A model generated the notes under the pieces. It did no database searches. It was given only the letters and a program-made list of their open reading frames with translations, and was not told where the DNA came from. Below, one piece after another: positions 11,315-49,600 of a DNA stretch of 64,000 bases. The position numbers and the translations under genes are program-made. Within the stretch, counting starts at the first letter, position 1. The number at the start of each line of letters is the position of its first letter. Origin of the DNA: Platycnemis pennipes (Eukaryota; Arthropoda; Insecta; Odonata; Platycnemididae); the NCBI GenBank assembly GCA_933228895.1, contig OW121846.1, positions 109,819,054 through 109,883,053 on the forward strand, read 5' to 3'.

Positions 11315-14300
11315 CTGGCCTCAATTCCACCCATAGGAACTTTGAATACCATTTTCTTGCGCCCTGTGCTCTTCAACAGTGACTCTTCTATTCTTTCTTT
11401 CAAGATGTCAATACCTTCAAAGTAAAAATGCTGAAATTTGGTATCAGAGCTTTCAATTATATTAAAGATTATTCCCAATGAAAATATAAAATAGAACAAC
11501 AAGTTACACTGGAGATACACCCAAAGGCCTTCTAAAGTTAGTGGAAACCATTGATAATGGGGATGGTAAGTATTTATCCTTTCTCTGGAGCATTATGCAT
11601 ACATTTTCTCAATGGAGAAATCAAAATATACCTATCCATTATTCTTATTACAGGTTTGTAGGAACTACAACATGCTCTTTGGGCACATTATAAAATATAA
11701 TGGAAAATAATAGAGATACTGCTGTAACCCCTTTGCAATACATAGTGTTTAACAATTTAGTGTCACGCACAGATAACTTTAATACAGTTAATCACACAAA
11801 ACTTGCATTTTTCCACAGAGTTCTTTAATGTACCATGTGGTTACACTCACAACATCATCCTCCAGTACAAGACAAGAATTGTTCAAGGAAGACACCATAA
11901 CTATACGGAGAGGAGAAGGGATGAGAGAGAGGAAGGGTGAGTGAAGACAATTGGAAGTGGAATGGTGAGAGGAGGCATTAAAGGTTGACAATATTGGAGT
12001 GAATAGGTTTGGACTATTGATGGGACCACCTAGAAGTAGGGTATATGGCGGGAAAGCCCGTGGAAGGGCTGCTCCATCCCTAATCACTCCCAAAAAGGTG
12101 AATCGCTTCAAGATCAGTACTGGATACCTGAAATGTCCTAACTATTTCAACCTCAACATTTTAGATAGTGGTTAGCAGCAATACTAATGAACAAGATTAA
12201 AAGTTGCTCAAGAATCAGGAACATCCCAGTTTACTTTGGTTTCGTGGAGACTAAGTTAAAGATGCCAGATTTTCAAGTTTCCTTTTAAAATAGCTGTTAC
12301 TCTTAGTGATTTCAAATCTATTGTGTATTATTACAAGTGAAAGCAGTCTATTTAAAGGAGGACATCAACAATGCTCTAGTCTTCCTGGAGGAGACTGAGA
12401 TTAATGACCTCTTAACATGCTGACGACTGAGTATTTGTTCTTGTGGTGTAGGACTGGCCACTTAATAGCTTTTAACCAAAACGTCATTACCTACGAAAAT
12501 TTGCATGAAACCTTGTTTTCTTCACAAATGCAATACAATTTTAAAAGTTCTAATTACCAGATTTGCCAGTATTTCTTTTTTTGGGGGGCTATTCGGAGGA
12601 TGATAACCTTTTATTACAAAGAACTATGCAGAATGCACTGATATACCATTTTTCCTTTCTGAGTTTCCTTGCAGAGCACATTGCAGTACATCCGTGATGG
12701 ATATTTATTGCTCCCAATGCCACATTTACCATTTTCTCATTCTCCCCAATAGCCCTTTTGGGTTACATTCATTTTGACAAAGTCGGAGTACTTACAAGTC
12801 AAAAAATTCTAAGTCAGTCTCAAAGTCATCCACGGAGGATTTATTACGTGAAAATAAAATGCAATTTGATCACTTTTACCATCTAATTTAAATCATTTAG
12901 TATCAAAACCAAGCCATTACAACATTGCACATACAGTTGAATCTTGTTTAATTTTAGCATGTGCTGGCTTCTGGACAGAAAAGAGGGGAATTGGGCAGGT
13001 TGGGCACACTCAAGTTGAGGAACAAATTATCTAGCAAATTATCACAGAGCTGAGAGCGATTGACAAAACAAGCATGAAAATGACAGTTGAATGAACAAGT
13101 TTTTGTTGCTGTTAAATGAAGAAATGCTGGTAAATACTGCATTGCTTCTACATATATGCCAATATTTAAGGCAGTCAACACTTGTATGGACAGTTACAAG
13201 GATTGTTTTCCATTTATTATTTCAAAATTCTTAACAACTCAAATTTGACGAGAAAATAAAAGAAGTGCTTACCAGCTTCAGTAACAGCAGACACAGCCAG
13301 GGCATTGCAGTCCAATAACTTAAGTTTGTCCTTGGCTTCAGCAACATCTACTTTATTCCCAACCACCAAAATATTTCTCCTAAGCTTCTCAGATATATTT
13401 AAAGATGCAAGTGTCTTTTCCACTTCTATAGACTGGGCCAAAGCATCTGGGTGGCTAATATCACAAACATGGAGAATAAGATCCTAGAGCAAAAAACAAA
13501 ATACATTAATACATATGCACTGAGAGAAGATTATACGGATGCCCGCTTACTTATCCCTCACTGCACTCATTACTAATTATTTTTTATGCATGATATGAAG
13601 TGTGTTTGGTGAGAATTCACCCCCTGCCACACACCTTTATGGTGGCTTGCAGGATATTATGTAGATGTAGATGTTAGGACTTAGCTCAGTTTTAATGCTT
13701 CATTAGAGAGGTTTACCATTCACAATGCTTAGATCTTTTCTCTAAAAAGCCTCTCCCCAAGAAAAAGTCTTAAATATTTTCCAAACTTGGATTCATGGGC
13801 ATCATGGGTTCATGCATTGACTCTAAAAACTCTTTTACATTCATCAATAAATTGTGCACCTTGGAGTGGCATCAATACATTGCAAATGAATGGGAATAAT
13901 ACAAGGGTTATTTTCGGCAAACTCATTCATGCATTTGGGAAGAATTTCCATCCAAGATAACACAGAATGAAAAACACGAGCCAAATCCACAAAAATAAAC
14001 TTTACTATGACCCGAGTTTCACTGTATTACAGCATCGTCACGTAGCGTATATCAAAGATGCACCATCATATATATGAACTCCGAATTCCACCAACAGGGG
14101 TGGGGGAACCCCACTCAGTTGTTCCTCCTTCACCAAGGGGGCAAACGAACGGAGGCCTCCATCATCGGCACTGCTCAACCCACAACAAGGAAGGGAGTCA
14201 TTGCATTTCACACCCTTTGTAAAGGGGCATCACCCAGGGGTCTGCCCCTCCCACATTTACGACCTCTCAACGGAGCACCCAAAGGACGAGGTTCCTTGCT

Positions 14301-17300
14301 GCAACCAACTTCTAGGGAAGGTCTTGTCTTCAAAGGAACCTTTCCAGACTTTTGTTTTTATATTTGCCACTCATTTGTGACCACCTCACCCCCTGTTACC
14401 CACTCCTGCCCACGTCTCCCACACTCTTTTTGCCCACACTGATTACTTCTGATGACCACCAGTAACCGTCCACTCCCACGCTCCTCCCCTTTCCTCCCTC
14501 CCTTCCCCCCCCCCCCATTTCGGTTCTTTCATATATATGTTGGTGCATCTTTTATATACGCTACCTGACGATGCTGTAATACACTGAAACCCGGGTCGTA
14601 GTAAAGTTTATTTTTGTGGATTTGGCTCGTATTTTTCTTTCTGTGTTATCATGTTTCGCTTCCACTCCATATCGCCTGAATCTTCAGAATTTGTAATTTC
14701 CATCCAATTTATAGCTTTACATTCAATTTTCATGGAGAATCTCTCCATGCAATAGATTGCGCAAAGGCATGCTTTATTAATTTACATGTTTCCGTGGCGT
14801 TCTGAATTTGAGGACCTCTCCATTTTTTGGGGTTTTGCCATATTAGGTGTCTTGAGATGACAACACCAGTTCTTCAATAGGATTCCAGTGGGCATGTTCA
14901 GGTCAAAATGCCTCCACTGGCACTTTGGCTATGCTTATCTGGCCCATGCTCTCTTTTGCTGTGGTGCTGATTGGTCCGTTTATGATACACTATCTTCCAG
15001 GCATTCGTCAGCCTAGGAGTGTTCCAGAACTTCATAAGACTAAAAAGGGCCACCAAAAAAGTATGACAACACCACAAGAGAGACCCCAGCACAAGTGAAA
15101 AGATCTCCAGGGTTCTGAAGAAACAAGATATTTTCACAAGGTTCAACTGCGTGATGAAAATAAGCAATCTGATGGCTGCTTTACACAATACAATTTTTTG
15201 CACAATTTCTTGTACAAACTCTTGTATAGACTGAACGAAATTTTATGTTTGTCTGAATGGAATTAGAACACGTTCTATTTCCCGTTCAGTCATTCAGACA
15301 ATAGCACAAGTTTCCGTACAATTTGCCGCTTTACATGGTACAATTTCCTCATGTAAGAGTTTGTACAAAAAATTGTATCATGTAAAGCGGCCTTGAGACC
15401 CAAAGATAGAACTTCACAACATCTCCATGAAGTGTCTACTGTATACCTTGCTACCTTGCGCAGAGCCATATATTGGCAGGACATGTAGAATCATGAAGAT
15501 CTGCCTGCACAAACACTATCAGCAACTAATTGGACAAACTCAGACAGGACATAAAATTTTATGAAGCCAACATCATTGCAGCAGAACAAAGATACTATCC
15601 CAGGATGATACGAGTCCACTGAGAATACCAAAATACCAAGAAACTTCAATAAAGAAGATGGACACCACCTGACAAATGCCTGGAAGAGTGTTCCACAAAC
15701 CTATCCCACAGTGCAGCAGCAAGACAGTATGTGCTATATAAACATGGCCTAAATGTGAGAATGTGAAAAGTTGGTAACTTTTACTTAAAATGATTACCGA
15801 GTGTATTTGATTTAATTTTTGGTATTCAGAGGTTGGCGGGCCTTGTTGCTTTTTGTACTTCTTTTGTTTTACGTGAAAACTTTTCTTCTCCCCGCCATGT
15901 ATCTTGTGAAAGACGGACAGAGAGTAAAAGAGATTAGAGTTGTTCTTCAACACACATGTATCTATTAATATTGATCCCATCTTCGACCTCTGAGTGTTAA
16001 ACCTTTCCACACTAAATGCTGGCATAGGCAGGTGCCTGACAGATTCCTGGCAAGAAAATTTTACCGCCTCAAGGCAGCCAGCACAGCCAAAATAAAAAAA
16101 ATTGAAAGATCATTGAATGACATGCTTCATTTACAATGACTAGAGAACTAGACTACAGTAAACAAATCACCATGCATTAATTTCAGGATGTTTCTGCAGC
16201 CACACATTTTTATGAATACCATTCCTATGCACTTAAAAACAGCTGCTTAATAATAATAATCCTAATTTCTCAAGGAATGCAGTTGAGAAAATTTTACTTT
16301 CCAAGTTTTGATTGCAAACTTCTTAAACAAACACCATTCATGATATGTAATTGACTTCAAGACCAAGTCATGATAATTAACTTCAGGCTGAACCTGAAAA
16401 TGACACAGTACAATGAAATCTACATTATTATGTAGTGAAATCTTCATTTCAGGAAAATTGCTTTCTTCATTGCATCTGTCAATATGTTTACACCCCACTA
16501 CATCTTCCCTGATACCTTATTAAGTAATTCGTGATAACTTTTTAGCATTTTCATTATCATAAAAAAATATCATTCTAAATGTAAGTCAGTAAATACCCTG
16601 TCATATAAGGTAAGTTCCCTCACTCACCCAATGTCAAAACATCCCTCTCATCATTTCCTCATTCCATGGGACAGTTAGATTTACATCCTAAATAAAACAG
16701 TTATATGAAGACATGATAACTTACAGCAAGAAGGGCATCCTCCAGTGTGGCATTGAATGATTCGATCAAATTGGTGGGAATATCACTGATAAATCCCACT
16801 GTATCAACATAAAGCACTTTCATTTTTGAAGGAAGGATGCCAGCATGAACTGTAACATCTAAGGTTGCAAACAGAATGTCTTTGGGTTGGAGGGCTTTCT
16901 CACCCGTCAGAGCTTTGATGAGTGATGTCTTTCCTTATTCAGTAAATGTGAAAAATAAACATTTAATGAAAAAGTAAACCTGGGGAGATGGTTCAATTTG
17001 TGTAAGGGCATATTTCCAATTATTTACCAGCATTTGTATAGCCGACAACAGCCACAGTTGGATATTCATTCTTACGTCTGTTGCTTCTTAGTAATTCCCT
17101 TTGACTACGCAACTTTTCTAATGATACTTTTATCTTGTGTTCTCTGTCAGCAATAATGCGCCTTCTCATCTCTGTAAATGACTCTCCGGGACCACCATAA
17201 CCTTGCCGAGATGGCTCTCCTTCATACATAAAATGAATTTTTGACCTAAGAATAAATTAAAATCAGTAAAATTCATGCTTCATTCACTTCACAGGAATGG

Positions 17301-20300: not shown

Positions 20301-23300
20301 GAAACTGCTAATGGAAGAGAGAGAGATCAGCAATAGATAAAAAAAGTATATTGAAGAGCTATACAGAGGCCCAATACCCCTAGGAGAAGCATTCACAAAT
20401 GACCGGAACCAGGTGGAGGAAGACAACCGCGGTCCAGCAATACTGAGAAGCGATTTCGAGAGAGCAGTAAGAGACCTGAATACTGGAAAGGCACCCAGAA
20501 GAGATAAAATCAGTGGAGAAGTAACCAAAGCACTTGATGAAAAAGCAGAAGACATATGGAATAATTCAAGATTGCTAAAAATCCGGAAATCTGCCAGAAG
20601 ACTTCAAGAGGAGCTCAATGGTGACCATACAGAAGAGGGCTAGGGTTGAGAAATGAGAGGAGCACCGAACCTCGAGTGTAGTGTCACATGCCTCCAAAAT
20701 CCTTACTCAGATAGTAGGCAGAAGAATTGAAGGTAAAATCGAAGAAAACCTATCAGAAAACCAATTTGGATATAGGAAGAATAGGGGAACAGGGGAGGCA
20801 ATACTATGCATGAGACTACTGGTAGAGAAAATTATCCAGGTGAGCAAACCATTGTATATAGTCCTTGTGGACTTGGAGAAGGCATTCGATAACGTCAAAT
20901 GGAATAAGATGTTCCATACTATGGAAAACTTGGCTTGGACTAAAATGTCAGAAGAATCATCTACCAGCTCTACAAGGACCAAGTGGCCACAAACGTATGC
21001 AAGATGGAAAAAATATAGAGGCAAAAATTAACAAAAAAGTCCGACAAGGATGTAACCTGTTACCAGCACTCTTCAATATGTACATGGAGGAAGCGATGAA
21101 AGAAATAGGAGAACAAGGTACCAAGGAATCAAAGTGAATGGAGAATAAATCAACATGCTACGCTTCGCTGATGATATCGCTATCGTAGCAGGAAATGAGG
21201 AAGACCTACAGAACTCACTGAACATAATTGAAAAAGTGTTCCAGGAATACAACATGAAAGTCAATAAGAAGAAAACCAAGATACTTGTGTGCAGAAGAGA
21301 GAAAACAGTGGCCGACGTCCGCCTCAAGGGAAAAAGACTGGAGCACGTGGAATCATTCATCTACCTCGGGAGCACATCACCTGGGATGGAAGAAGCACGA
21401 CAGACATCAAGCATCGAATAGCCCAAGCTAAGACGGCATTCATGGCCAAAAGGCCACTACTCTGCTCGAAGAGCATAAGACTGGAGACAAGGAAACAGTA
21501 TGTGAAAACATTCGCGTGGGCAGTGGCACTCTACGGATCAGAAGAATGGACCACTGGAAAAACTGACCAGAAAAGAATAGAAGCCTTCGTGACGTAGTGC
21601 TGGAGAAGGATGCTGAAGATCAAATGGATGGATAGGGTGAGAAACTAGGAGGTATACAGAAGAACTGGGGAAGAAAGAGTACTGCGGAGCACCATACGCC
21701 AAAGAAGGACATGGTGGGTTGGCTATGTCATGAGACACAACAATTACGTGGGAAGCATTATGGTGGGAAAAATTGAAGGGAAAGTCCCCAGAGGAAGACC
21801 AAGAGATAAGTACTTGGGGCAAGTCAAGAAGGATACGGGGAAGAAGAACCATAGAGAAATGAAGGAACTGGCATGGGATAGGGTGAAACGGAGGGCTGCA
21901 GTATACCAATCCTAGGATTGAAATACTATAGTATGAAGGCTGATCATAGGAAAAATAATGGAGAAGAACAAACCGATGTACATTGTGTTTGTGGATTTGG
22001 AGAAGGCTTTGACAATGTGAATTGGAATTCATTGCCTGGAATTCTGAAAGGAATTGGAGTGTTCTACATTGACTGAAGAATTATCCACAATTTATATAAA
22101 AACTAAGTGGCTGTAATTAAATCTGGACCCAGTTTAGCAGAAGTAACAATTGGGATAGGAGTGAGACAAGGTTGTGCACTGTCTCCCATAATTTTTAATG
22201 TTTACATTGAGAAATCCATCAAAGAAATCGAAGAGTAGGCTTTGGGAGTGAATATCCATGGGTAAAAAATTAGCATGCAATGATTCGTAGATGATATAGC
22301 AGACATGACATAAACAGAAAGATATTTGAAGGTGACACTAAGAAATATGGAAAGATAATGGTCAGATATCAACTGAAGATTAATTAAAAGAAAACAAAGA
22401 TATTGGTGTGCAGCAGGAAAGAAGAGGCCAATACCAATGTTACTCCAGGAAAACAAAAACTTGAGGGGGTAAAAGAGTACTATTACCTCGGAAGCCAAGT
22501 AACTAGCGAGGGACGAAGAAAGAAAGAAATAATCAGTAGAATAGCTCATACAAAGAGGGCATTCTACCTAAAGAAGAATATACAGAATGCTGCTGGGAAC
22601 ACAGGCGTGAAAGTAAGGAAACAATTCATCAGAAATTACACCTTGGGCATATTCTTTTACGGCAGTGATGCATGGACGATTACAGTAGCAGAGAAGTCAA
22701 GGGTGGAAGTATTTGAAAAGTGGTGCAACAGAAGAAATATGAAGATTAAATAGATTGACCAAGTGAGTTATGAAGAAGTCCTTAGCTGAGTGAGAGAAAA
22801 GAGAAGTCTTCTGAAAAACTTAAGATGAAGACAACTTAATCAGCTACATCATGAGATATGAACCTGATGAAGACAATCATAGAAGGCTTGCTGAATGAGA
22901 AGAGTGGCAAAAGAATTGTCTCAATTGAGATATGTAGAATAAGTGATAAAGGATGTGAAAGATAAGAAATACATAACTATGAAGAGATTAACTGATAGGA
23001 GAATTGAGAGGAGAGCTGAGTGAAACCTATCTCAGGATTGTTGATGATGATGAAACTACTACTTATGTATAAAGCATAATTGTGAGGACAACCAACAAGT
23101 CACGGTATCTCAGTATGATGTCACAAAGGACAACTATAGCTATTCTGAGTAAATGTCAGATATATTCAATAATAACGTTCTGTAGTGATTCCTCAAGACC
23201 ATGAAGTAGTATTTTTTGTAATACCTAATGTTTTATTTAAAATTGCTTAAGAAATAGGGTGGTCTCCTTCATCAAAGAAAACAAAATTCATTAATTGGGA

Positions 23301-26300: not shown

Positions 26301-29300
26301 AATAGGCCATCATCAGGTACATAAAAGAATTTTTCCAAGTGCCTTTATATATAGTTAGGGAACGGGCGACAGAGGGGAGGGGGAAAGAATGTGAGGGAGG
26401 GTTGAGGGAAAGGGATTAGAGGCAGGTTGAATGGGTCATGGGTTTTCTGTGGGTGAAACAACTGAAAGTATGGGTGGGAGGATAAAAAAGGTAATGTCAT
26501 TCAACAGTCCCGGGTACTTGCAATGGAGGCCAATCTCTCACTGTTACCAGGCATCTTTTGGCCTTTGGGGGCCATAAGGAGGATTTGGGGTTCAAAGGAG
26601 CTGTGGTGACCCTCTTCATTTTGGTGTTGTCGGAAGCTGGAGGTCAGGTCACAGGTTTGAGGAGTTCTTATGCTCATTCATCCTTTTGGAGAAGCTTCTT
26701 CCTGTCTGTCCAATGTAGTAGCTGGAGCAGTCGTCACACTTGATGTTATACACTCCGCTCTTCCGATTGGGGTCAAAAAGGTCTTTGGCATTGGTCAAGG
26801 TACTTAAAATTGTTTTCAGGTTGTAGAAACAGATTTTAAAGGACTCTTTTGGGATCAAGTGTGAAATAGCTTAAGACATATTTCCATAGAATGGTAATTA
26901 GTGGGGTTGTGATGGTTGGATAACAAGTGATTAAGTAGATGGATGTTGTCTTAGTATTTTCGTTAAAATGTTATCCATGATGGCTTCATTATATCCGTCA
27001 TTAAAAACTTTCTGTTTTAAAATTTGGATTTCCGTGTCAAAGCATTGGGAGGAGAGGGGAAAGTTGATTAGGTGGTGGACCATGGAATAGAAAATGGCAT
27101 GTTTGTGGGAGTGCGGATGGTTTGAGTCACTGGGTAAGATTGCATCGGTGTTTGTCAGTTTCCTATGCATGGAGAACCTGTGTCTATTGTCCTTCAAAAT
27201 TATGGTCAGGTCTAAAAAGTTTAAAATTGTCCCTCCAATTTTCATGGACATTTACACATTAGGATGTATGCTGTTCAAGTGGGATAATAATTGTTCCAAC
27301 TATCATTTACTACCCATCCAAAGGCACAAAATATCATCAATATATCTATACCACTAGAGAACAATGCTAATAAAATTGTTTTGGGTATTGAATAACTTAT
27401 ATTCTCATTGGTCCATAAAAACTTCCACTAGTAAGGGTGAAAGTGGGCAACCCATGGCCAGCCCCTCCTTTTGGCGGTAAATGTTGTTTCTTTTATGTAC
27501 TTGATGATGGCCTAATGGCTGAAACCGGCAGTACCGATATTAAATCAGTGGAATTCATAAGTTTATATCACTTTATTATTATGGAAAAATTCCACAAAAT
27601 AAGTACACAGTCAATAAGTTTTCTAGTTAATAAGCATTAACGGAATGTACCGTCTGCTTGGAAGCATCTGCAGCACCATCTAGTGGCAGGTAGAGGAAAG
27701 AGTTTCAAGTCACACATACAATTTACCAGCATGCAATAGAGTGCTGTTGCATTTTCGCACTGATGAATTTTTTCACTTTTTAATTAATGAGGAGAAATAC
27801 TTAACATCATTTTAAAATCGAACAGCTTAAAACTCGTACTCCAGAGGTTATAAACTTTTGATCAAGACAATAAAAAATTAATAGGAAACTACCCTATTGT
27901 TGAATTTGTCTGGATTTTGGTGACATGATCCAATTCATTAATTTACCTATCTTAAATGCTACAATGCAGTCTACTATTTTAAACAACATGTACTTCATAA
28001 ACAATACAGTTCCTTCATTACTCTGAAGCAATAAATATATCTTACCACAAGTATGGGATTTCAGCCATAGCAACTTGGAGTTTTGCTTCTTTAGTGACAG
28101 CCCGCTCTCGAAATATTTGCATTACAACTAGGTATCGATCAAATACAGTCAATCCAAATATTTCTTCAAGCTCCCTAAAAAAGGAAATAGATATAATAAT
28201 TAATGCAATCATTCAACGCAAATGAAAAACTGAAAATGCAAATTGCATATGATAGTGATAAAAAATTATGTCAAAACCTTAGCTTCATCAACTAAGTTCT
28301 AAACTTTTAGTCATAAGCCATTTCGTGAGATGATAAAGAAACTATGCTACCATGAGAGAGAATTATTGTTGCCAATCTGTAATAAGGATTTTGGTTTAAT
28401 ATATTTCCTACCATACAAAATTGAAGAAGAAAATTTCCCCAGAGCCGTAATCTTAGGGGGCAGAGGAAAAAAATGATTCAGAGGGGGATAGAAGAGTACA
28501 AAGGAAGTAAGGAAGCTCTCGATAACACATATGAAATGAAGCATGCACAAATGTGTAGTCCACATGGTTTTTCTTTTTCTTTTGGCAAAATTGAAAGGTA
28601 AAATACAATAATTCCTATAAGTAGTAAAAATGGGGTCATTAACCATATTTTTTTATAGTCGGATCTGATAGAGTTTGTAAAATAAAAAGACCCGTATTTT
28701 TCCCTTTTTTGCTTCGTCAATTATTTCTCGAGTTATAAGCGGTGAAAAACTGATGTTTTTAACCCTTTCGGAAAAGTGGGTATGGTGCAACCTCTGACGT
28801 ATATCGACTTCGTCCAACCACAACTGAGCCCGCAAAGCTACTTTGCCTTATTGCAATGGGGGGACACAGCTGACTCTGCCAATAGAACCAGTTGTGACAG
28901 CATCTGTTCGAGCAGACCTTCCAAGAACCCCTCTTCTCTCCCTCCCTTTCCCCTAAAAGCAGTTAAGGATGGGAGGAAAGTGACGCCAATGATATCATAG
29001 CAGCTTTTTCCGTGGGCGTCACCTTTTGCTTATTTTAATTTTTGATTTATGAGTGAATGGTTGTGGTTAGAAGATTATTTTTTTCACTAAAATTCTTTTT
29101 TCGTTTCCATTTAATGATTTCGTGTACAAAATTGCAATTTCAGTTCAAAGTAAATGCCCCCATTCTAAACAGTTAAGTTAATTCTCATTTTTGTCTTAAT
29201 TCTTTTGTGCTTTGCTCTTATGTTTTTCAGCTAGATTTTTTTTTAAAGCTCATTAATTACTATTTCCATGACTCCTATTTGTTTTGAGTTGTATAGAATT

Positions 29301-32300: not shown

Positions 32301-33933
32301 TTCATTGCCAATAGACAACTCAGCATGGAAGAACGCCTGAAAGCTGTTACAATGTACCAGTAACCAAATTTCTACTTTATAGGTAACTGATTTTGTCACT
32401 TTATACAGGCACAGCTGGCTTCTATGTCACAATTAATGAGATCCAATCATATTGCCAATTTTTCTTCACACTAGTGACCTCATTAAAGAACACACAAAAT
32501 CCCGAAGTAGTTGATGCAAAAGGCATTATAGGAGTAAGTGAGGAAACAGCTAAGGTGATTTGTGTCACTTAGGATATAATAGCAATTAGGTAGTGGTAGG
32601 AATTTTACAAGGAGGAAGGGTGGAGAGAAACTGGTAATGACATTTCCCAACTCTTAGCAAAAGGCACTGAGGGGTCCAGAGTTCAACACCCCATTTGATG
32701 GATGGAGTACTGTACTTGGAAGTGCTCTCATGATAGAACTCAAGTGGGGACTGGTGCGCCAATCAAAAATCTCTGCCACTGCCAGGATTTGAACCAAGAT
32801 CCGAAAGATGGGAGGCCAGTACTAGCCACCACACTCATCAGATCCCCCAAAAAACTATAATCAATAGGAAAATGAATGAGCACACTTCCTATAAATCTAA
32901 TTCTCCAAAACCTCATAATAACACATCCCTACTCAGTTATCCCTTTCTTTTCATTTGGATCTTTCCTCCTACGTACGCCAATACCAAAAATATCAACTTA
33001 GCCATTCCACTACATTCTACACCAAAACAACAACTCCACGTGGGCTCCATTGTGTACTTGATACCACAGTGTAATCTTCAATTTGGCCTTTTGGCAAAAT
33101 TTGCCAGGTACAAATTGTGTTTAACTTCAAGGCAATTAACTACGAAAAAGAAAGTATACTACTACCTGTGCTGATATCCTTTCAAAACATCCACACTGAT
33201 GAACAAAGCTGTTGCCGAATCAATACTCTTCACCTTTTCCTTCAAATTCTCCAAATAACCACGTCCAAACAGCGTTTTTTTGTCCAAGGTCTGAAGAGGC
33301 ACTTTTAGCTGCAATCAATTGAACAAGAATAACTATACAGGAACATGATTCAAGTATGTAATGACTCACCAAGCTAAGACAATAGTTATTGGCACTTGAA
33401 ACTGTTCAATGAAATGAGTTAAGGTGTATAAAATTTGACTAGATTACATTCTCAAGTACCTTGAATACAACTTTCCAATTATGCAATGAATGGACCAATG
33501 CAACTGCTTCTGCTAGCTGCAAATCCGGTGTGGTGTTAGTTTTCCTTTTGTGGCCCCATTTCACATAGGGCTGCACAACAACTACATTGTGACCAGCACC
33601 AGGAGCAAAGAAATATCTCCTTGAAAATGCTTGATACTCTACTGCCTGCTCATCTTCCAGATCAGTGACAATTTCTTCGCTGGAAGCATTTTCGCGATGA
33701 CTGCGTTCATCGGCAAGGGACTTTGTGGAAACACCGAAAGCCCTTTTGGATCCACATTTGTCACTTACTATAAAAGGCTTTATGAAGAAATTTTGTGGAA
33801 TATACATCCCTTGCCTGATAGCAGCAATACAATGCACATTCTTAAAAATAAACCTAGCATATTCTCTCTTTGCCCTAAGGGAAATACATAGATTAGCCCT
33901 TCCACAGAGGGAAAGAATCGAGAGAGTAAACAT
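11315..33933 (-). CDS. GTPBP6: GTPBP6/HflX-family GTPase, seven exons found, 3' exon missing
   Basis: This encodes an HflX-type GTPase; the animal homologue GTPBP6 acts in mitochondria on ribosome subunit recycling and assembly. Exons on the minus strand are 33933-33460, 33308-33166, 28174-28046, 17245-17028, 16933-16725, 13483-13273 and 11414-11315; all junctions keep frame. The start ATG at 33933 has an in-frame TGA 18 nt upstream. The Arg/Lys-rich first 40 residues look like a mitochondrial presequence. The HflX N-domain carries LFGRG and AEIPYL, followed by GGPGES. The G domain has G1 GYTNAGKTS, G3 DTVGF, G4 NKVD and G5 SA. An intron of about 94 nt splits the P-loop between NAG and KTS. 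About 494 residues are recovered; human GTPBP6 has about 516. The short last exon (expected to start near WLYKE) was not found below 11315. Introns 2, 3 and 5 are transposon-rich. The start lies 35 nt after the TMEM141 stop. Confidence 0.92.
13600..13675 (+). other. Probable LINE 3' tail
   Basis: CACCCCCTGCCACACACC, GGTGGCTTGCAGGATATTAT and GTAGATGTAGATG form a tail of a kind I associate with insect LINE 3' ends. No coding part is attached. Confidence 0.35.
13956..14650. mobile_element. Foldback element with 123-bp inverted arms and hammerhead-like cores
   Basis: Arms 13956-14078 and 14528-14650 are inverted repeats with about a dozen differences. Each arm reads outward TGACGATGCTGTAATACA then TGAAAC and GGGTC: a core of CTGACGA, a CTGTA/TACAG stem II and GAAAC, as in Penelope termini. 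The interior (14079-14527) is C-rich, with a poly-C run near 14507, and shows no conserved coding. Located in GTPBP6 intron 5. Confidence 0.7.
15005..15760 (+). mobile_element. Decayed Penelope-like GIY-YIG remnant
   Basis: Plus-strand pieces in shifting frames read ISRVLKKQDIFTRF near 15100, PYIGRTCR near 15468, then EANIIAAEQRYYPRMIR and PRNFNKEDGHHLTNAWKSV (15560-15690). The order fits the RT-to-GIY-YIG end of a Penelope-like protein. A 219-bp MITE splits it. Confidence 0.6.
15174..15392. mobile_element. MITE with 27-bp terminal inverted repeats
   Basis: Ends 15174-15200 and 15366-15392 match in inverted orientation with three differences (GGCYGCTTTACAYRATAC then AATTTTTTG). Inner segments around TTGTACAAACTCTTG are also inverted. 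No protein is encoded. It is inserted in the Penelope-like remnant. Confidence 0.7.
17600..18452 (+). mobile_element. CR1/L2-like LINE 3' fragment
   Basis: Frames give TGTKFLGFYLNECFSWDSHI, YSRLKYGIVAWGNSPKSE, KLQKWAIRIICKARHKEL and then MPLSCIYMYE and HDTRKKSN with LFNNFPNEIK. This is the RT thumb and C-terminus of a CR1/L2-type LINE. A frameshift at about 17990 separates the two frames. The tail ends in a short CTATCTATCTAACTA repeat. In GTPBP6 intron 3. Confidence 0.75.
18460..18980. other. Unassigned stretch between two LINE fragments
   Basis: A 98-residue minus frame (18951-18655) is rich in Cys, Leu and Val but matches nothing I recognise. No terminal repeats were seen. It is probably unclassified repeat DNA within GTPBP6 intron 3. 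Confidence 0.3.
18985..20172 (+). mobile_element. RTE-clade LINE fragment: endonuclease to early RT
   Basis: It opens with a STWNVR-like start near 18990, then IVVQVYMPMMDYEYEEVE and DNLIILGDWN (19270-19410). These are the exonuclease-endonuclease-phosphatase blocks of the craniofacial-development-protein-2-like RTE endonuclease. It ends with LDENQFRFRKSKGTKEAI, the start of RT, at about 20165, followed out of order by linker sequence of another copy. Stops and frameshifts make it inactive. Confidence 0.75.
20173..21915 (+). mobile_element. RTE-clade LINE fragment: linker, RT and C-terminus
   Basis: Frames read FERAVRDLNTGKAPRRDKIS, SENQFGYRKNRGTGEAI, YIVLVDLEKAFDNVKWNK (20850-20905), then KVRQGCNLLPALFNMY and MLRFADDIAIVAGNEEDL (21155-21208, the FADD catalytic box). 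The C-terminus has WRRMLKIKWMDR and RGRPRDKYL as in BovB-like elements and ends near AAVYQS at 21915. Several frameshifts break it. Confidence 0.8.
21935..23055 (+). mobile_element. RTE-clade LINE fragment, second head-to-tail copy
   Basis: It begins inside RT at YIVFVDLEKA (21978) and runs to the 3' end at a GATGATGATG tail (23040). The best frame is 22403-22753 (EYYYLGSQVTSEGRRKKEI, VRKQFIRNYTLGIFFYGSDA). Many stops suggest it is older than its neighbour. Confidence 0.75.
23660..24020 (-). mobile_element. Penelope-like 3' fragment with inverted termini
   Basis: About 45-bp inverted repeats (23667-23708 and 23969-24015) share CAGTTGGCTTGTGGACAA. Between them the minus strand reads REAIEIQKTPLNFNREDG followed by an HSAW segment, the conserved end of the GIY-YIG protein. 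It then gives CTGAAGA, a 6-7 bp stem (ACTGGC/GCCAGT) and GAAA, a degenerate hammerhead-like core. This is a different family from the 26-27 kb copy. Confidence 0.6.
24205..25370 (+). mobile_element. RTE-clade LINE fragment with internal deletion
   Basis: The linker region (RKYKNEETEEGQLAIKEF-like, RINKASGIDDIPA-like near 24830) jumps at about 24900 directly to thumb sequence (KVKDFCYLGCRVTSNEQSKR, 24918-24977). The whole polymerase core is missing. The 3' end reads LIGHILRHDGLMKTIVEGKV and stops at 25337. Confidence 0.7.
25371..26185 (+). mobile_element. RTE-clade LINE fragment, 3' end with TGA tail
   Basis: It starts at RT (stop-interrupted FAEDIALIAETEKEQN) and continues through KRAFYQKKNLRTAGNTSLEI and VEAFEMWCYRRMLKIKW (25651-26031). 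It ends with a TGATGATGATGATGA tail, typical of RTE 3' ends. Its 3' 120 bases match 25240-25366 of the previous copy, including the same AAGAATTGA stop. Confidence 0.75.
26281..26320 (-). ncRNA. Hammerhead-like ribozyme core, left Penelope terminus
   Basis: The minus strand has CTGATGA, a short stem II (TGGCC/TATT/GGCT), then GAAAC and a GGTAGTACC stem-like tail. The core residues CUGAUGA and GAAA are intact. Stem I cannot be defined without a tandem or flanking copy, so activity is inferred only from motif and family. Confidence 0.5.
27499..27538 (+). ncRNA. Hammerhead-like core, right Penelope terminus, C-to-T mutated
   Basis: The plus strand carries the same motif as the left terminus, but the conserved CTGATGA reads TTGATGA, which would be expected to abolish cleavage. 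GAAACCGG and the stem II halves are kept. Confidence 0.4.
28631..29162 (+). repeat. 532-bp interspersed repeat, copy 1
   Basis: It starts TGGGGTCATTAACC and ends TAAATGCCCCCA, so its ends are imperfect inverted repeats. It matches 59997-60528 in reverse orientation over its full length. Shared blocks include CTGATAGAGTTTGTAAAATA and TTTTTGATTTATGAGTGAAT. No coding is evident, which suits a nonautonomous DNA element. In GTPBP6 intron 2-3 DNA just upstream of the 28174 exon. Confidence 0.85.
29735..29880 (-). repeat. Probable tRNA-derived SINE, degraded
   Basis: The minus strand reads AGCGGTGGTAGTCCAGTTGT, then TCAGGCTCCAATTCC, a weak A box and B box at tRNA-like spacing. Confidence 0.45.
30437..30570. 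mobile_element. piggyBac-like terminus with three subterminal repeats
   Basis: TTAACCCTATCGCGCC at 30437 resembles a piggyBac end. Three units of 42-44 bp follow, each with AATGCC...TATGCGGC (30452, 30494, 30538). No opposite end was found. Confidence 0.4.
32690..32850 (-). repeat. tRNA-derived SINE head, different family
   Basis: The minus strand carries GTGGTGGCTAGTACTGGC (A-box-like) and TTGGTTCAAATCCTGGCAG, which includes a perfect B box GGTTCAAATCC. It lies in GTPBP6 intron 2. Confidence 0.6.
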
Positions 33934-33968
33934 TTGAACAGAGTAACTTCAAATTCCAAGTCGAAAGC
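33934..33968 (-). other. 35-nt intercistronic spacer, TMEM141 stop to GTPBP6 start
   Basis: Only 35 nt separate the TMEM141 stop from the GTPBP6 ATG, with no room for a polyA signal plus a promoter. The reading frame is open from the TGA at 33951 onward. This arrangement implies a shared transcript, a start site inside TMEM141 exon 2, or alternative splicing into this exon. Confidence 0.8.
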
Positions 33969-34415
33969 TCACTGCTCAACCGCTGGATCGTCTGAAAAAT
34001 ACGTATGTTTTTCTTCAGCAGCCATCCAACCAGCTTGACACGCTTTCGCTCTTATGGATGTTATTCTGTACGAAACAGCGACAGCAACTAAGCTGGATAC
34101 AATCACGAAAGATTTTTTGTTGTAGGGCAATAAATTCTTCGACAGTGACTGTCCAATGTAAGTTCCTGCAAAGGCTGAATTTCATCAAAAGTTTAGTGTA
34201 AGCAATGAGACGTAACATAAAAAATCAATTATATAAACAAACCAAATAGGTAGTCATACTTCAAAACATTTCATTTAATGCAGTAATCCACTCAGCTCAC
34301 CTAAAGTGAAAGATGACAGTCCAGTAAGTAAAGTTCTAGACATGCACTCCATGTACGAACCAAACCCTGGGTGCACCTCTTTGTACTGTTCTTTCAAAGC
34401 ATTTATGTTATTCAT
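33969..34415 (-). CDS. TMEM141: TMEM141-like small membrane protein, two exons
   Basis: Exon 1 is 34415-34301 and exon 2 is 34165-33969, joined by a 135-nt GT-AG intron with the frame kept (G split 1+2). The protein has 103 residues, close to the 108 of human TMEM141. It has the family's HPG motif near residue 16 (EVHPGFGSY), followed by a hydrophobic stretch (TLLTGLSSFTL) and a second one (FVIVSSLVAVAVSY), so two membrane segments are likely. After these comes a conserved-type stretch with Cys (RAKACQAGW) and an acidic tail. The molecular role of TMEM141 is not known. A very short upstream ORF begins at an ATG 13 nt before the chosen start. The family call rests on recalled similarity and matching size and layout. 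The stop codon lies 35 nt before the GTPBP6 start on the same strand. Confidence 0.82.
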
Positions 34416-35373
34416 AGCGTTGCACCATTAATCTCACTACAATAATAAATGTCCACTATGTTCAAAGACACTTAGCGAGACGTGAAAATTAATACATATG
34501 ATGAGCATAATTCCGAATTCCATTCATAACGGGATCACACAACAAATTAAAACGGAAGTGCTTTCACAATACGAAAATGCCAAAATTATACGACTCATAT
34601 ATTGAAAGGAAGCACCATAAAAACGCAACTAAATACAACAAAAAGAGTCAAAAATCGCCGACGCACCGAATATAATATCAAGATTTATCCCATTAGAGGT
34701 GCCACCCCTCACAATTGCGCACAAAACACGAATTCTCTACTGTACACTCGCGTACCTTTCTTCATTTCTTCCCACCTTTACGTTCATTTTCATGGTTGTG
34801 TTGCGGAAAGTTCATAACAATGCTCAAGAGAGCAAGGATAGGGGTGATAGGGGAGTTCTCGATATGGAGGAAGATAAGGAAGGAGAAAAATAAGGAAGGC
34901 TCATGCCGACGTTTTTCGTAAGCCAAAGATGGCAGCACTGCCGTATTGACTAGCGCCATAGGAATCTCTTTCCATTGGTATCACACAAGAGCTTAATTTG
35001 CTCTATGGCATTAATGGTATCATATCTGCCCAACTATGTGGAAAATATCAATCGTGACAGTCCAATGGACCAATAAGATTTGACTCCCTTCTGACCCTAG
35101 TACAAACAGACCCACTCCTGGCGTATATGTTATTTGGGAGAAAAGGATGAGTGGGCACACCAAACGCATAGTGGTAGCGGTGGTAGCGTGGTAGCTGTTC
35201 CTGATCCTTCGAATCACTGTAGAACCGATCACAGCGCACCTAGTGAGTTTGGGGGAAACGAGAGCCGGGTTTCGTTCTTTTATTGTTCACACGTGCACGG
35301 TCGGGTTGATCGAGTTTTGAGTAAAACCGTAAGTTCCGTGTTCTGGGTTTTGACTGATTTTAGGCGTTGAAAA

Positions 35374-35905
35374 ATGGAATCATTGCCAAGGAAAACCAAT
35401 TGTTGTGCCGCTCTTTGGTGTAGTAATTGTGAAGGTGTCTGTGTGGACACTCCAATCTCATTTTTTAGTTTTCCCAAAGTGGAATGGAGGTAAGCAGGTT
35501 TAATTGCCATTAGTGGACGAATTCCACGATTCAACCCGTTATGTATTCTTTATGCATTTTACAACACTGGCGTATATGTTCCTACCTATATCTGATAAAG
35601 ATTTGCGTCATGAAAATTAAGCGTTGTTTTATCGTACCTAGTAGTAAATGCGGGGATGGTGATGATACCTGCATAGGTTTAGCAAGTTAGCATAAGGAAG
35701 ATCCATATTAAATTTGCTAATACAACCGATGCGCTTAGGGCGAACAAGTGGCTAAAGTTTTCCTGGAGAGAGGACTTGATCAGTGGAGATGTAGCTGAGT
35801 TAAAAAATCTTCGGCTATGCAGCGACCACTTTCTAGAGTCCTGTTACAGGAAAAAATACCCGAAGCCTATTCTGTCTCCTGATGCAGTGCCTTCATTGCT
35901 GGGTG
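35374..35905 (+). CDS. THAP zinc-finger domain exons 1-2
   Basis: These two exons (35374-35489 and 35697-35905) encode the whole DNA-binding THAP domain without a stop. Exon 1 gives a start Met and the first Cys ligands; exon 2 gives the conserved Trp, the C-x2-H ligands and the AVPS box. Donors GTAAGC and GTATGT are good; the acceptor at 35696 sits in a weak pyrimidine context. Exons 35991-36087 and 36201-36277 can extend this frame as an acidic and then basic tail, so a short THAP-only protein is possible. The start codon lies about 960 bases from TMEM141, head to head. Confidence 0.7.
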
Positions 35906-36679
35906 GTATGTCATTAGTATACATATACTTGTATGAAAGTATTGGCCCGCTTGGTTACTTTTAACACGAAAAAAATTAATTACTTTACAGCAACTGATGA
36001 AAAATTTGCCGACAGTAACGATCATGATGATTCAACGCAGGAGTACTTTTGTGGCACTGAAAGGACTGACCCTGCAGAAGAAGGTCCGTAATTATTTTAA
36101 AACTTATCTTATTTTAAAACCTTAAAATCTCTCTACTTTTTAAATTTTAAAGCTGATTCAGCGAGAGAATAACGGTATACCCATACCTATACTATAGTAG
36201 GTCTCAAACAAAGAGGCGAGAACTTGAGGATCTAAAAAGTTTCTTCGTGAAACCACTTTCTGCTTCTGGTGACCCAGGTTAGGATGGGTCATTAACAATT
36301 TTGGCAGATGGGCCCCCATATTTTAAAAATTTAGCCTTGTCACTGTATTGCCTTGTCCCACATGCCATCAGTACATAAAAATATTATTATGCTTCCTTGC
36401 AGTTAGGACCTTATTGTAATGGCAAAAGAAGTCGTTGCTCAATCTGTTGTATGTTTAAATTGTTTGATCAAAAAGGCTGCCATTTCAGAAAGCCGCGCAT
36501 TGCCTGCTACATTACTGATTGACAAAGTGGCAGTGATAGAACGCCTACAATATGATATTGGACAAGTTGGAGTATGTAGTCCTGGCAAATTTTCATAGCC
36601 AAATATTGATACCCTTCCCACACAGCATAATTTGCATTCAATATGTGTATTAATGCATATTGGTGACATTTGAATGTAT

Positions 36680-41159: not shown

Positions 41160-42745
41160 CGGATTTATTTATTTGTTTGTTTGTTTGTTTGTTTGTTTAT
41201 TTATTTATTTATGTATTTATTTACGTATTTATTTACGTATTTATTTATTTATTTGTTTATTATTTTATTTATTTTATTTATTTTATTTATTTTATTTATT
41301 TTATTTATTTTATTTATTTTATTTATTTTATTTATTTTATTTATTTTATTTATTTTATTTATTTTATTTATTTTATTTATTTTATTTATTTTATTTATTT
41401 TATTTATTTTATTTATTTTATTTATTTTATTTATTTTATTTATTTTATTTATTTTATTTATTTTATTTATTTTATTTATTTTATTTATTTTATTTATTTT
41501 ATTTATTTTATTTATTTTATTTATTTTTTTTATTTTATTTATTTTATTTGTATATTTGTTTATCCTGAGTGGTGATAAAACCCACTCAGGTGGGACTCGA
41601 ACCCGCAACCTTAAGAAAAAACCCTATTGAAAAAAAAAAAAATTATTTACGTATTTATTTATTTTATTTATTTATTTGTTTATTTATTTATGTATTTATT
41701 TATTTATGTATTTATTTATGTATTTATTTACGTATTTATTTATTTATTTGTTTATTAGTTTATTTATTTATTTATTTTATTTGTATATTTATTTATCCTG
41801 AGTGGTGAAAAAACCCACTCAGGTGGGACTCGAACCCGCAACCTTAAGAAAAAACCCTATTGAAAAAAAAAATATTATTTACGTATTTATTTATTTTATT
41901 TTATTTATTTATTTGTTTATTTATTTATGTATTTATTTATGTATTTATTTACGTATTTATTTATTTATTTATTTGTTTATTAGTTTATTTATTTATTTAT
42001 TTTATTTGTATATTTATTTATCCTGAGTGGTGAAAAAACCCACTCAGGTGGGACTCGAACCCGCAACCCTAAGAAAAAACCCTATTGAAAAAAAAATATT
42101 ATTTACGTATTTATTTATTTTATTTATTTATTTATTTGTTTATTTATTTATTTGTTTATTTGTTTGTTTATTTATTTATTTTATTTGTATATTTGTTTAT
42201 CCTGAGTGGTGAAAAAACCCACTCAGGTGGGACTCGAACCCGCAACCCTAAGAAAAAACCCTATTGAAAAAAAAATATTATTTACGTATTTATTTATTTT
42301 ATTTATTTATTTATTTATTTGTTTATTTGTTTATTTATTTATGTATTTATTTATTTATGTATTTATTTACGTATTTATTTACGTATTTATTTATTTATTT
42401 ATTTGTTTATTAGTTTATTTATTTATTTATTTTATTTGTATATTTATTTATCCTGAGTGGTGAAAAAACCCACTCAGGTGGGACTCGAACCCGCAACCCT
42501 AAGAAAAAACCCTATTGAAAAAAAATATTATTTACGTATTTATTTATTTTATTTGTTTATTTATTTGTTTATTTATTTGTTTATTTATTTGTTTATTTAT
42601 TTGTTTATTTATTTATTTGTTTATTTGTTTGTTTATTTATTTATTTTATTTGTATATTTGTTTATCCTGAGTGGTGAAAAAACCCACTCAGGTGGGACTC
42701 GAACCCGCAACCCTAAGAAAAAACCCTATTGAAAAAAAATAAACG
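41160..42745. repeat. Satellite-like array: TTTA-rich repeats with six tRNA-like B-box segments
   Basis: From about 41250 to 41560 a 9-bp unit TTTTATTTA is repeated roughly 30 times. Then a longer unit recurs with variable spacing (179-251 bp). Each carries CCTGAGTGGTG at 41563, 41797, 42022, 42201, 42452 and 42665, then CCCACTCAGG (a 9-10 bp hairpin), GTGGGACTCGAACCCGCAAC (minus-strand B box) and an A-rich segment. Long open frames across it are low-complexity artefacts. Confidence 0.9.
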
Positions 42746-46600: not shown

Positions 46601-49600
46601 TACTGTGAATTACGACTTTCTTGTGTACAGTACCAGATGCGTTAGTACCCCAGATACTTTTGATGACAATTCGAATGAGATCCTGATTTTTAGTGTTTTT
46701 CGATCGTATCTTTTAATTTTTTCCATTTACAAAACCCCGTTTTAATAAACTTTTCGTTTTGGTCTCGCACAACCTCGGTAAAGAAAAGTCTACACACAAA
46801 GCAGTATGCTCGATCTTTTTCCACACTGTACTCCAACCACTGGTGTTTTTCATAGTAAGTGTCGGCAAATGATCGGTTTCTGTCTCCAAATAGTGTTTTC
46901 GGGAAATTAATTTTCAGTTGTTTCGGTCCAGTTTCCATAGTGCCAAGATCTGTCGGTTCAGATGCCCTTTCCTCGGTTACTTCCATTTTTTCATCTGTGG
47001 GTTTCGTTGAAGTTTCAAACGTTGACGGTGGAGAGGAGGGGAATGCGCGGTCGTCTCTGGGAGAATCATCATCTTCACATTGATCATTTCTTGGAGGGGG
47101 AGAGAGAGTTTTCTTGAAAAATGATCGAATATATCTGAAACTTTCTTCATCTTGCAACTAAATAAAAACAAAATAGAAGGGAAAAAGCACAGGATTGCGC
47201 GAAACTTAATCAACTGCACAACACTATAGTGCTTTCCGCATTTAGTTGACAGTATGGGCTCTCATGGAGATTCGTTTCCCATGTTAATCTCCGCAAGGGC
47301 GGAGGTGCGCTGTTGTCAAATGCAGCATTAAAATTAATATTGCACTATGCACTGTATAAAAATGTGCCATAATGCATAAAGAGACGTTTCATTTAGTGGT
47401 GCCAATAGTTTTTCGATACAGTTTATAAAAAAGTTTATAAAAATATTTCCTTAGACTTCCCCTAGAAACGCAGTTCTTTTCACTTTATTTTCTTCACTCG
47501 ATTGTCGGCAAACCGTTCCTCATGCCGGATTAAAACTTGTACATAAAGGTTTCTCATGCTATTTTCTTCGTAACAGTGCACATGTTTTTTGTGGTTAATT
47601 GAGCTAAAAGGTTGTTTTTCTGATTTAAATATCTTAAGGACAAAAATTTGAATTTTTGTAAGGTAAAAAGTAGTCGCCTGCTAACTTAGTGAGAAATCAT
47701 TTCCTTATCTCAATCGTGAAGGGAGTTACAACATTTTGATCTTAAGAAAAATTATTACGCGCCGTCGAGGCGCGATGTTTGCTCAGTCTGCAAGTGAAGA
47801 AGGAGGATATTAGCAACGGCAGCATCATATATCATATTTGAGATGTTTTGTGACTTGACTAAATTGCTTCGAGAGGGAGGTAAGGGGATTCAATGAGCGT
47901 GAAAGGTGGGGAGGGGAGGAGGGCTCTTCTTGTCTCACGAAGGGGAGTATGGTAATCGATGATGCTCTTGCATAAGATTATGGTTACACATGAGATCATA
48001 CTTGTATTACCATTTTAATAAGAATAGTGTTTTTAGAACTGCAAGAATGTATTTACTACGAGCTATTTACTATTTACTATGAAAGGTGGGGAGGGGAGGA
48101 GGGCTCTTCTTGTCTCACGAAGGGGAGTATGGGAATCGATGATGATCTTGCATAAGATTATGGTTACACATGAGATCATACTTGTATTACCATTTTAATA
48201 AGAATAGTGTTTTTAGAACTGCAAGAATGTATTTACTACGAGCTAGTGTGCTCCCGCTACCTCTCGGCCTGAGTCTCGGAAGTTAAAAAAAAGAGAGGTA
48301 AAATTTTCAGAACAACATAGCTTCGGATTCCTTGTGATGAGCGAAATACATTGTGATCATGAATTTTAACACAACTAGGCAAATATCGCAACACGGATAT
48401 ACAAAAGGGATTGTACGTCTGATTCACAACTAAACAACTCTAAGATTCACTACTGAATGCTCCACGAATTACTATGGCTTACGGCTATGGAGCTTATTCC
48501 ATGCACGTCAGTGACTGACATTAGTTTTACTTGGTGAAATAAAGGGCGGGAAAGACTGGCCGATAAACGGAATGGTAGAAAAATAAGGAGAATTTCCTAT
48601 CCCAGTTTCTCCCTGACTGATACGAGGATTCCCTGATTTTTCCAGAAATTCGAAATCCACAAATTCAGGTAACCTGCGCCAAACCTAGCAACTCAAGGCT
48701 GGTAAAATCAGTTTACCAGCGTTTCTCCAACCTGCGTTCATAGGACGAACTTGATACTCAAGTTACTAGCATATAGGCAAGGGTTACTGGCTTTCCAACC
48801 TAGTAGTGTGAACGGGGCCAAAGGGACCGCACCGCCGTGCTGTGGCTCGGCTGCAGGCGAGCGGTTGCCAGCGCTGTGTGAAGCGTGGCCACCACAATTT
48901 CGATATGTCTAATTTTTCTGGGGGGGGGCCACGAGCCTTCTGGGGGGGGCCCCCCCAGGGACCCCCCTAGCTACGCCCATGCTGAAGGCCTTATTTCGCA
49001 ATACAATTACTTTCATAAGTTGTTGTGTGCATTTCGGCCTCTTTCTGTTCAGATTATTGTAAATTTGCCTATTGAAGATGCTGACGAAGTGGTTAAACCG
49101 AAATGCCGAAATTTTTGGTCGATGAAAGCGAACTATGTGGTTTTAGCAGATTCGTGGAGAAGTGCTTTGCCTACCAGCCGCAGAATGCTCTTTTGAATTT
49201 TGAATATTATTTAAAAATTGGGTGTAGGGCCCCAGAGGAGAGTACTGAACATAATCTGGGAATAAAATTCCGTATAATACATTGACAATAGTACATAATT
49301 GCTTACAGTTTGTCTAATAGACTAAATCAAAAAACAGAATCCAGTTTGCTGCGGAGCTTCTGAATATGACCCTCCCAAGAGACTTGGCAATCTAGAGTGA
49401 CATGTAAGAAGGAGGAACTATCATTTTGTGGAATATATTTACCATAAATATTAACAGAGATAAGTGATTGATGTTTAATCTTATTAGAGAAATAAATTAA
49501 ATTTGATGAGGAGGGAATTTCGGTTATGCCACTCTTGTAGGAGAAGTGCAGTGTTACAGGATCTTTAAGTCAAACTTTCAATAGATGAGGCAGACACTAA

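Follow-up and report, generated by a model that had tools for sequence, protein, structure and literature searches.

Introduction

Dicistronic genes are already known in insects. FlyBase records 159 dicistronic pairs in Drosophila melanogaster and places 350 genes in polycistronic loci; 45 of the 159 loci appear exclusively dicistronic, the remaining 114 also producing monocistronic isoforms, and at loci with polycistronic transcripts only, the stop-to-start distance ranges from -34 to 319 nucleotides (nt) (PMC4528330). The same survey includes Mocs2 and CG42503, a conserved dicistronic pair with functionally related proteins (PMC4528330), and the Drosophila stoned and Snapin loci are reported to give rise to dicistronic mRNAs read by leaky scanning, a mode whose signature has been described for green algae (PMC11892635). 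Here, we analyze TMEM141 and GTPBP6, two adjacent genes in a 64,000-nt stretch of DNA from the odonate Platycnemis pennipes (assembly GCA_933228895.1, contig OW121846.1, positions 109,819,054 to 109,883,053 of the forward strand; hereafter the window), which probably make up a dicistronic unit of long standing in insects, with GTPBP6 made from the second open reading frame (ORF).

Like the Drosophila pairs, the locus has two unrelated ORFs on the same strand, a small upstream protein and no canonical polyadenylation (polyA) hexamer between the ORFs, and its distance of 35 nt falls within the range given in the FlyBase survey. It differs in that the pair is known here from genes rather than from a spanning transcript, and in being indicated from Odonata to Hemiptera. 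As in stoned and Snapin, the first ORF is short with one out-of-frame AUG; unlike at those loci, three AUGs remain in frame within TMEM141, its own start context is fair and the second start is weak, so that the leaky-scanning signature is absent. The conservation of the pair recalls Mocs2/CG42503 and would suggest joint function, but unlike that case our literature search returned no report relating TMEM141 to GTPBP6, no paper naming both and no instance of TMEM141 beside any '-cistronic' word. Among insect dicistronic pairs, TMEM141-GTPBP6 appears to be unusually old. The human proteins GTPBP6 and TMEM141 are homologues of the two window ORFs, TMEM141 by way of its Pfam family; their genes, unlike the window pair, lie on different chromosomes.

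Results

Both genes are encoded on the minus strand, with TMEM141 first. Its exon 1 (34301..34415; start ATG at 34415, donor TAG|GTGAGC) and exon 2 (33969..34174; stop TGA 33971-33969) are separated by a 126-nt intron and, once spliced, encode 106 amino acids with 83-84% identity to the proteins of the damselflies Hetaerina americana and Ischnura elegans. A Pfam profile search matched this product to PF15110 over the entire profile (positions 1-91 of 91; E 3.9e-29; 101.5 bits against a curated cut-off of 27), which identifies it as a full-length TMEM141 family member on the basis of homology. Thirteen nt before the TMEM141 start lies the ATG of a potential 6-codon upstream ORF (34408-34428, minus strand), whose stop falls just within the TMEM141 start region. 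A THAP-domain ORF on the other strand (35683-35964, plus strand; E 5.2e-08), whose distance upstream from TMEM141 is approximately 1.3 kilobases (kb), could be the neighboring gene or a transposon remnant.

The second ORF is GTPBP6, of the HflX family, as judged by homology to the human and odonate proteins through the N-terminal, middle and G domains. Coding exon 1 (33460..33933) and exon 2 (33166..33308) match human GTPBP6 (PDB 7of2) with an E of 1.8e-15, and identity to the GTPBP6 proteins of Hetaerina and Ischnura is 70-71%. The identities of the two proteins point to an odonate source, probably a damselfly. Two observations favor the ATG at 33933 as the main start: residue 1 of Hetaerina GTPBP6 aligns there, and an N-terminal pattern, M...CG(R/K).N, is common to the window, Ischnura and Hetaerina proteins. 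The partial gene model of Ladona fulva, the fourth odonate represented, lacks the pattern and stood outside that alignment. To the eye, the N-terminus of the window protein looks like a mitochondrial presequence.

The original prediction had placed the TMEM141 stop 35 nt from the GTPBP6 start, with an intervening TGA resetting the frame, and both statements proved accurate: the stop codon at 33971-33969 and the ATG at 33933-33931 enclose a 35-nt intercistronic gap (33934..33968, minus strand) that contains no ATG and carries a TGA at 33951-33949 in the GTPBP6 frame. It had further argued that this gap is too small to hold both a polyA signal and a promoter. Taken alone, that argument is insufficient, as such signals may overlap the adjoining coding sequence. 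Using sequence hexamers as the only criterion, we found on the minus strand no AATAAA for 6,392 nt past the TMEM141 stop and neither AATAAA nor ATTAAA for 2,493 nt; clear runs of these lengths occur at 2.2% and 2.6%, respectively, of sampled minus-strand positions in the window. The one variant hexamer, CATAAA at 33784, lies within GTPBP6 exon 1. The absence of canonical hexamers agrees with a shared transcript but is not proof of one.

Evidence from other insects came from two match lists, one holding 85 TMEM141 matches and the other the best 120 of 765 GTPBP6 matches. Short-contig sources are the only origin of 50 of the 85 TMEM141 entries and, on the GTPBP6 side, of 52 of the 120 listed, and these two sets share four contig sizes (7732, 2857, 3922 and 2223 nt), compared with a mean of 0.55 and a maximum of 3 in 400 shifts of a size-shift control. 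Every entry involved in such a coincidence stands for a single contig. When the order of the nearest named relative was also required to agree, five pairs were obtained, whereas 1000 shifts gave 0.053 on average and never more than 2; the labels of nearest relatives drew on all 35 named TMEM141 rows and, of 68 further GTPBP6 rows, on 51, those left out being mostly vertebrates plus one cut-off name. Among the matches listed, the TMEM141 and GTPBP6 entries with a contig size of 2,223 nt are both closest to Gryllus, and those with contig sizes of 7,732, 2,857 and 3,922 nt are closest to leafhoppers or froghoppers for the two proteins alike. A second GTPBP6 entry with a contig size of 3922 (P0074) is aphid-like and was taken as a coincidence, yet it makes up one of the five pairs.

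In the cricket-like pair, the two uninterrupted ORFs would fill 2,001 of the 2,223 nt; on the other three contigs, 919, 1,993 and 5,836 nt would remain beyond the two ORFs. Since introns interrupt each of the genes in the window, the simplest reading of the 2,223-nt contig is a complementary DNA (cDNA) carrying both ORFs, which it probably is. Equal sizes and matching relatives together make a shared spliced mRNA likely, and we infer that such short contigs are spliced two-ORF mRNAs and that the pair is expressed likewise in P. pennipes. In 37 of the 50 short-contig TMEM141 entries, the longest contig measures at least 1,900 nt, far more than an ORF of 0.3 kb requires, but this is no more than suggestive, as there may be genomic contigs among them.

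Where species names, matched by eye, appeared in both lists, all four species had the two proteins on equal-sized contigs among the matches listed: Hetaerina americana (1,193,789 nt), Ischnura elegans (123,641,648 nt), Macrosteles quadrilineatus (117,827,960 nt) and Gryllus longicercus (2,826,967 nt), the last with consecutive locus tags, R5R35_001973 and R5R35_001974. In the stick insects' order, Phasmatodea, a single predicted protein carries both PF15110 and the HflX domains in Timema douglasi and in T. bartmani. The T. bartmani model (P0017) contains two internal duplicated stretches, a sign of errors in automatic prediction or assembly. A further trace was seen in Ladona fulva, where all 10 residues at the start of the GTPBP6 model are compatible with the TMEM141 segment AEEKHTYFSE read in another frame; in a control with residues 131 to the end of the 120 GTPBP6 proteins in two frames, the maximum was 9 (2 of 240). 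This match was noticed by eye first and tested afterwards, and the residue immediately preceding it would have to differ from the usual alanine. Scans for TMEM141 outside insects yielded no relatives among 40 pattern-matching stretches in viral contigs and 112 in prokaryote genome contigs.

Read from contig sizes, locus tags and gene-model fusions, the pair thus recurs in other insects, with evidence from Odonata, Orthoptera and Phasmatodea and weaker evidence from Hemiptera, and the search for the same adjacency in other arthropods that had been proposed as a check came out positive as far as it could be carried. A chance closeness in one genome, involving neither a shared transcript nor conservation, would fit a region in which the THAP-domain ORF also sits just ~1.3 kb from TMEM141, but the indication of the same pair in four orders leaves it next to no probability.

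More serious is the view that the genes are two independently transcribed neighbors, with a GTPBP6 promoter in TMEM141 exon 2 or in the 126-nt intron and a non-canonical TMEM141 polyA site within GTPBP6, the tight spacing going back to an old accident that the overlap between the genes makes difficult to undo. Overlapping signals of this kind are possible, the CATAAA at 33784 offers a candidate site, the Ischnura and Hetaerina proteins are listed separately, and even in Drosophila the loci that appear exclusively dicistronic amount to just 45 of 159. We nevertheless regard this arrangement as unlikely, since no canonical hexamer occurs for 2.5 kb past TMEM141, a cDNA-sized contig seemingly carries both ORFs, as do three larger ones, and the Timema models run through both genes. 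The dicistronic unit put forward in the original prediction is favored, supported by the adjacency in other insects and by the short contigs that seem to carry both ORFs.

Discussion

If TMEM141 and GTPBP6 form a dicistronic unit, a promoter upstream of TMEM141 would drive one primary transcript, and splicing would produce an mRNA consisting of the 106-codon TMEM141 ORF, a gap of a few dozen nt and the GTPBP6 ORF. Leaky scanning or reinitiation would then give GTPBP6 from the second ORF, with some monocistronic isoforms probably adding to it; the FlyBase survey makes a mixture of this kind likely, since only 45 of its 159 loci appear exclusively dicistronic.

Several observations weigh against the shared transcript or its use as a two-protein message. 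First, the short contigs are known by size alone, and the larger of them (7,732 and 3,922 nt) could be genomic. Second, the Ischnura and Macrosteles contigs are of chromosome scale, so that the equal sizes show linkage only, and in Ischnura and Hetaerina TMEM141 and GTPBP6 are listed as separate proteins. Third, a search for out-of-frame TMEM141 with a broader 16-position motif, covering the N-terminal 130 residues of the 120 GTPBP6 proteins listed, found no excess, the maximum being 12 compared with 11-14 for shuffled versions, and the Ladona 10-mer alone stood out. Finally, the arrangement of start codons, judged by Kozak rules, is the opposite of what leaky scanning would predict, with G at -3 of the TMEM141 start and C, a poor context, at -3 of the GTPBP6 start. 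Three in-frame AUGs lie within TMEM141, and out-of-frame AUGs are no more than weakly depleted in it (1, where 3.3 would be expected, P 0.05; 2.4 by codon shuffle, P 0.20). A first ORF of 106 codons followed by a gap of 35 nt is also unfavorable for classical reinitiation.

From the TMEM141 start to the GTPBP6 start, the spliced RNA has a single out-of-frame ATG; in GTPBP6 exons 1-6, such ATGs are in excess (24 against 16.9). The combination expected of leaky scanning (a weak first start, a strong second start and an AUG-poor first ORF) was not found at TMEM141-GTPBP6. RNA folding around the gap was unremarkable (z -0.78) and gave no structural sign of an internal ribosome entry site. Leaky scanning, reinitiation and additional monocistronic isoforms may all be routes to GTPBP6.

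The fused Timema models raise the question of whether the two ORFs could be joined by splicing. Excision of a hypothetical candidate bridge intron of 98 nt (33875..33972, minus strand; GTGAGC...CCCTTAG) would take out the TMEM141 stop together with the GTPBP6 ATG and join the ORFs in frame. The TMEM141 stop codon falls within its GTGAGC donor, the frame is preserved with any of three acceptors (first exon base 33898, 33874 or 33814), translation across the join at 33874 gives an open frame, and the donor and acceptor scores, based on general splice-site weights, are within the range of the real introns at the locus. The pair could be pictured as a single gene that mainly yields a TMEM141-GTPBP6 fusion once this intron is spliced out, as the in-frame fusion models of T. 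douglasi and T. bartmani would have it. We consider this very unlikely. A site pair equally good is found at ~17% of random anchors, the junctions differ between the two Timema models, as in automatic predictions, and the GTPBP6 models of T. genevievae, Ischnura, Hetaerina and Gryllus all begin with their own Met. Fusion would also delete part of the apparent mitochondrial presequence; the acceptor-like sites whose first exon bases are 33898 and 33874 both come after the CG of the shared N-terminal pattern.

A related but less exclusive arrangement would be a conserved switch, in which retention of the bridge intron yields a dicistronic mRNA for TMEM141 and soluble mitochondrial GTPBP6, and its removal yields a membrane-anchored fusion. 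We give such a switch only a small chance, and the Timema layout may be similar to it. If it existed, the spliced form would tether a mitoribosome recycling GTPase to a membrane.

The dicistronic pairing itself, if confirmed, could carry functional information. Human GTPBP6 is a GTPase in mitochondrial ribosome assembly or biogenesis and recycling (PMC7736812). No assigned function for TMEM141 was met in the literature examined that names it; the one paper with both TMEM141 and MitoCarta names TMEM141 only in a supplementary gene list. A table in PMC10152607 was rejected as evidence of TMEM141 location, as it also holds apparently non-mitochondrial proteins. Conservation of the pairing hints at a mitochondrial role for TMEM141 without demonstrating it, and a functional link or partnership between TMEM141 and GTPBP6 is offered here as a hypothesis. 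As a guilt-by-association lead, the pairing across insect orders predicts a mitochondrial TMEM141 acting in or near mitochondrial translation. A genuine dicistron of this age would also provide an old insect system for the study of second-ORF translation and would account for the fusion models in insect annotations.

Additional Features of the Window

Beyond its first two exons, GTPBP6 continues on the minus strand with exon 3 (28046..28174), exon 4 (17028..17245, ending within the P-loop GYTNAGK), exon 5 (16725..16933), exon 6 (13273..13483) and exon 7 (about 11317..11415, given as tblastn limits with approximate splice ends). The 3' end of the gene probably lies outside the window, because the last exon was not found within its 64 kb. 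Intron 3 (28046 to 17245) contains, on the opposite strand, a reverse transcriptase fragment (20657-21031, plus strand; PF00078, E 4.7e-12).

Elsewhere, pieces of a Copia-type long terminal repeat retrotransposon occupy 50826-53048 (minus strand), comprising, at 50826-51794, an integrase core plus an SH3-like domain and, at 52626-53048, a copia gag match too weak to reach its cut-off. On the plus strand, a leucine-rich-repeat exon (58120-58428; E 2.9e-12) and a leucine-rich-repeat stretch below cut-off (54039-54431; E 0.0068) were found; the repeat exons of 54039-58428 are reminiscent of a PPP1R7/SDS22-type gene. A further stretch at 60560-60907 had no Pfam match. Repetitive DNA includes long TTTATTTAT/TTAT microsatellite arrays (41163-42665), among them a 179-bp unit at 41921-42358, and a 180-bp unit present in approximately two copies with 98% matches at 47900-48245.

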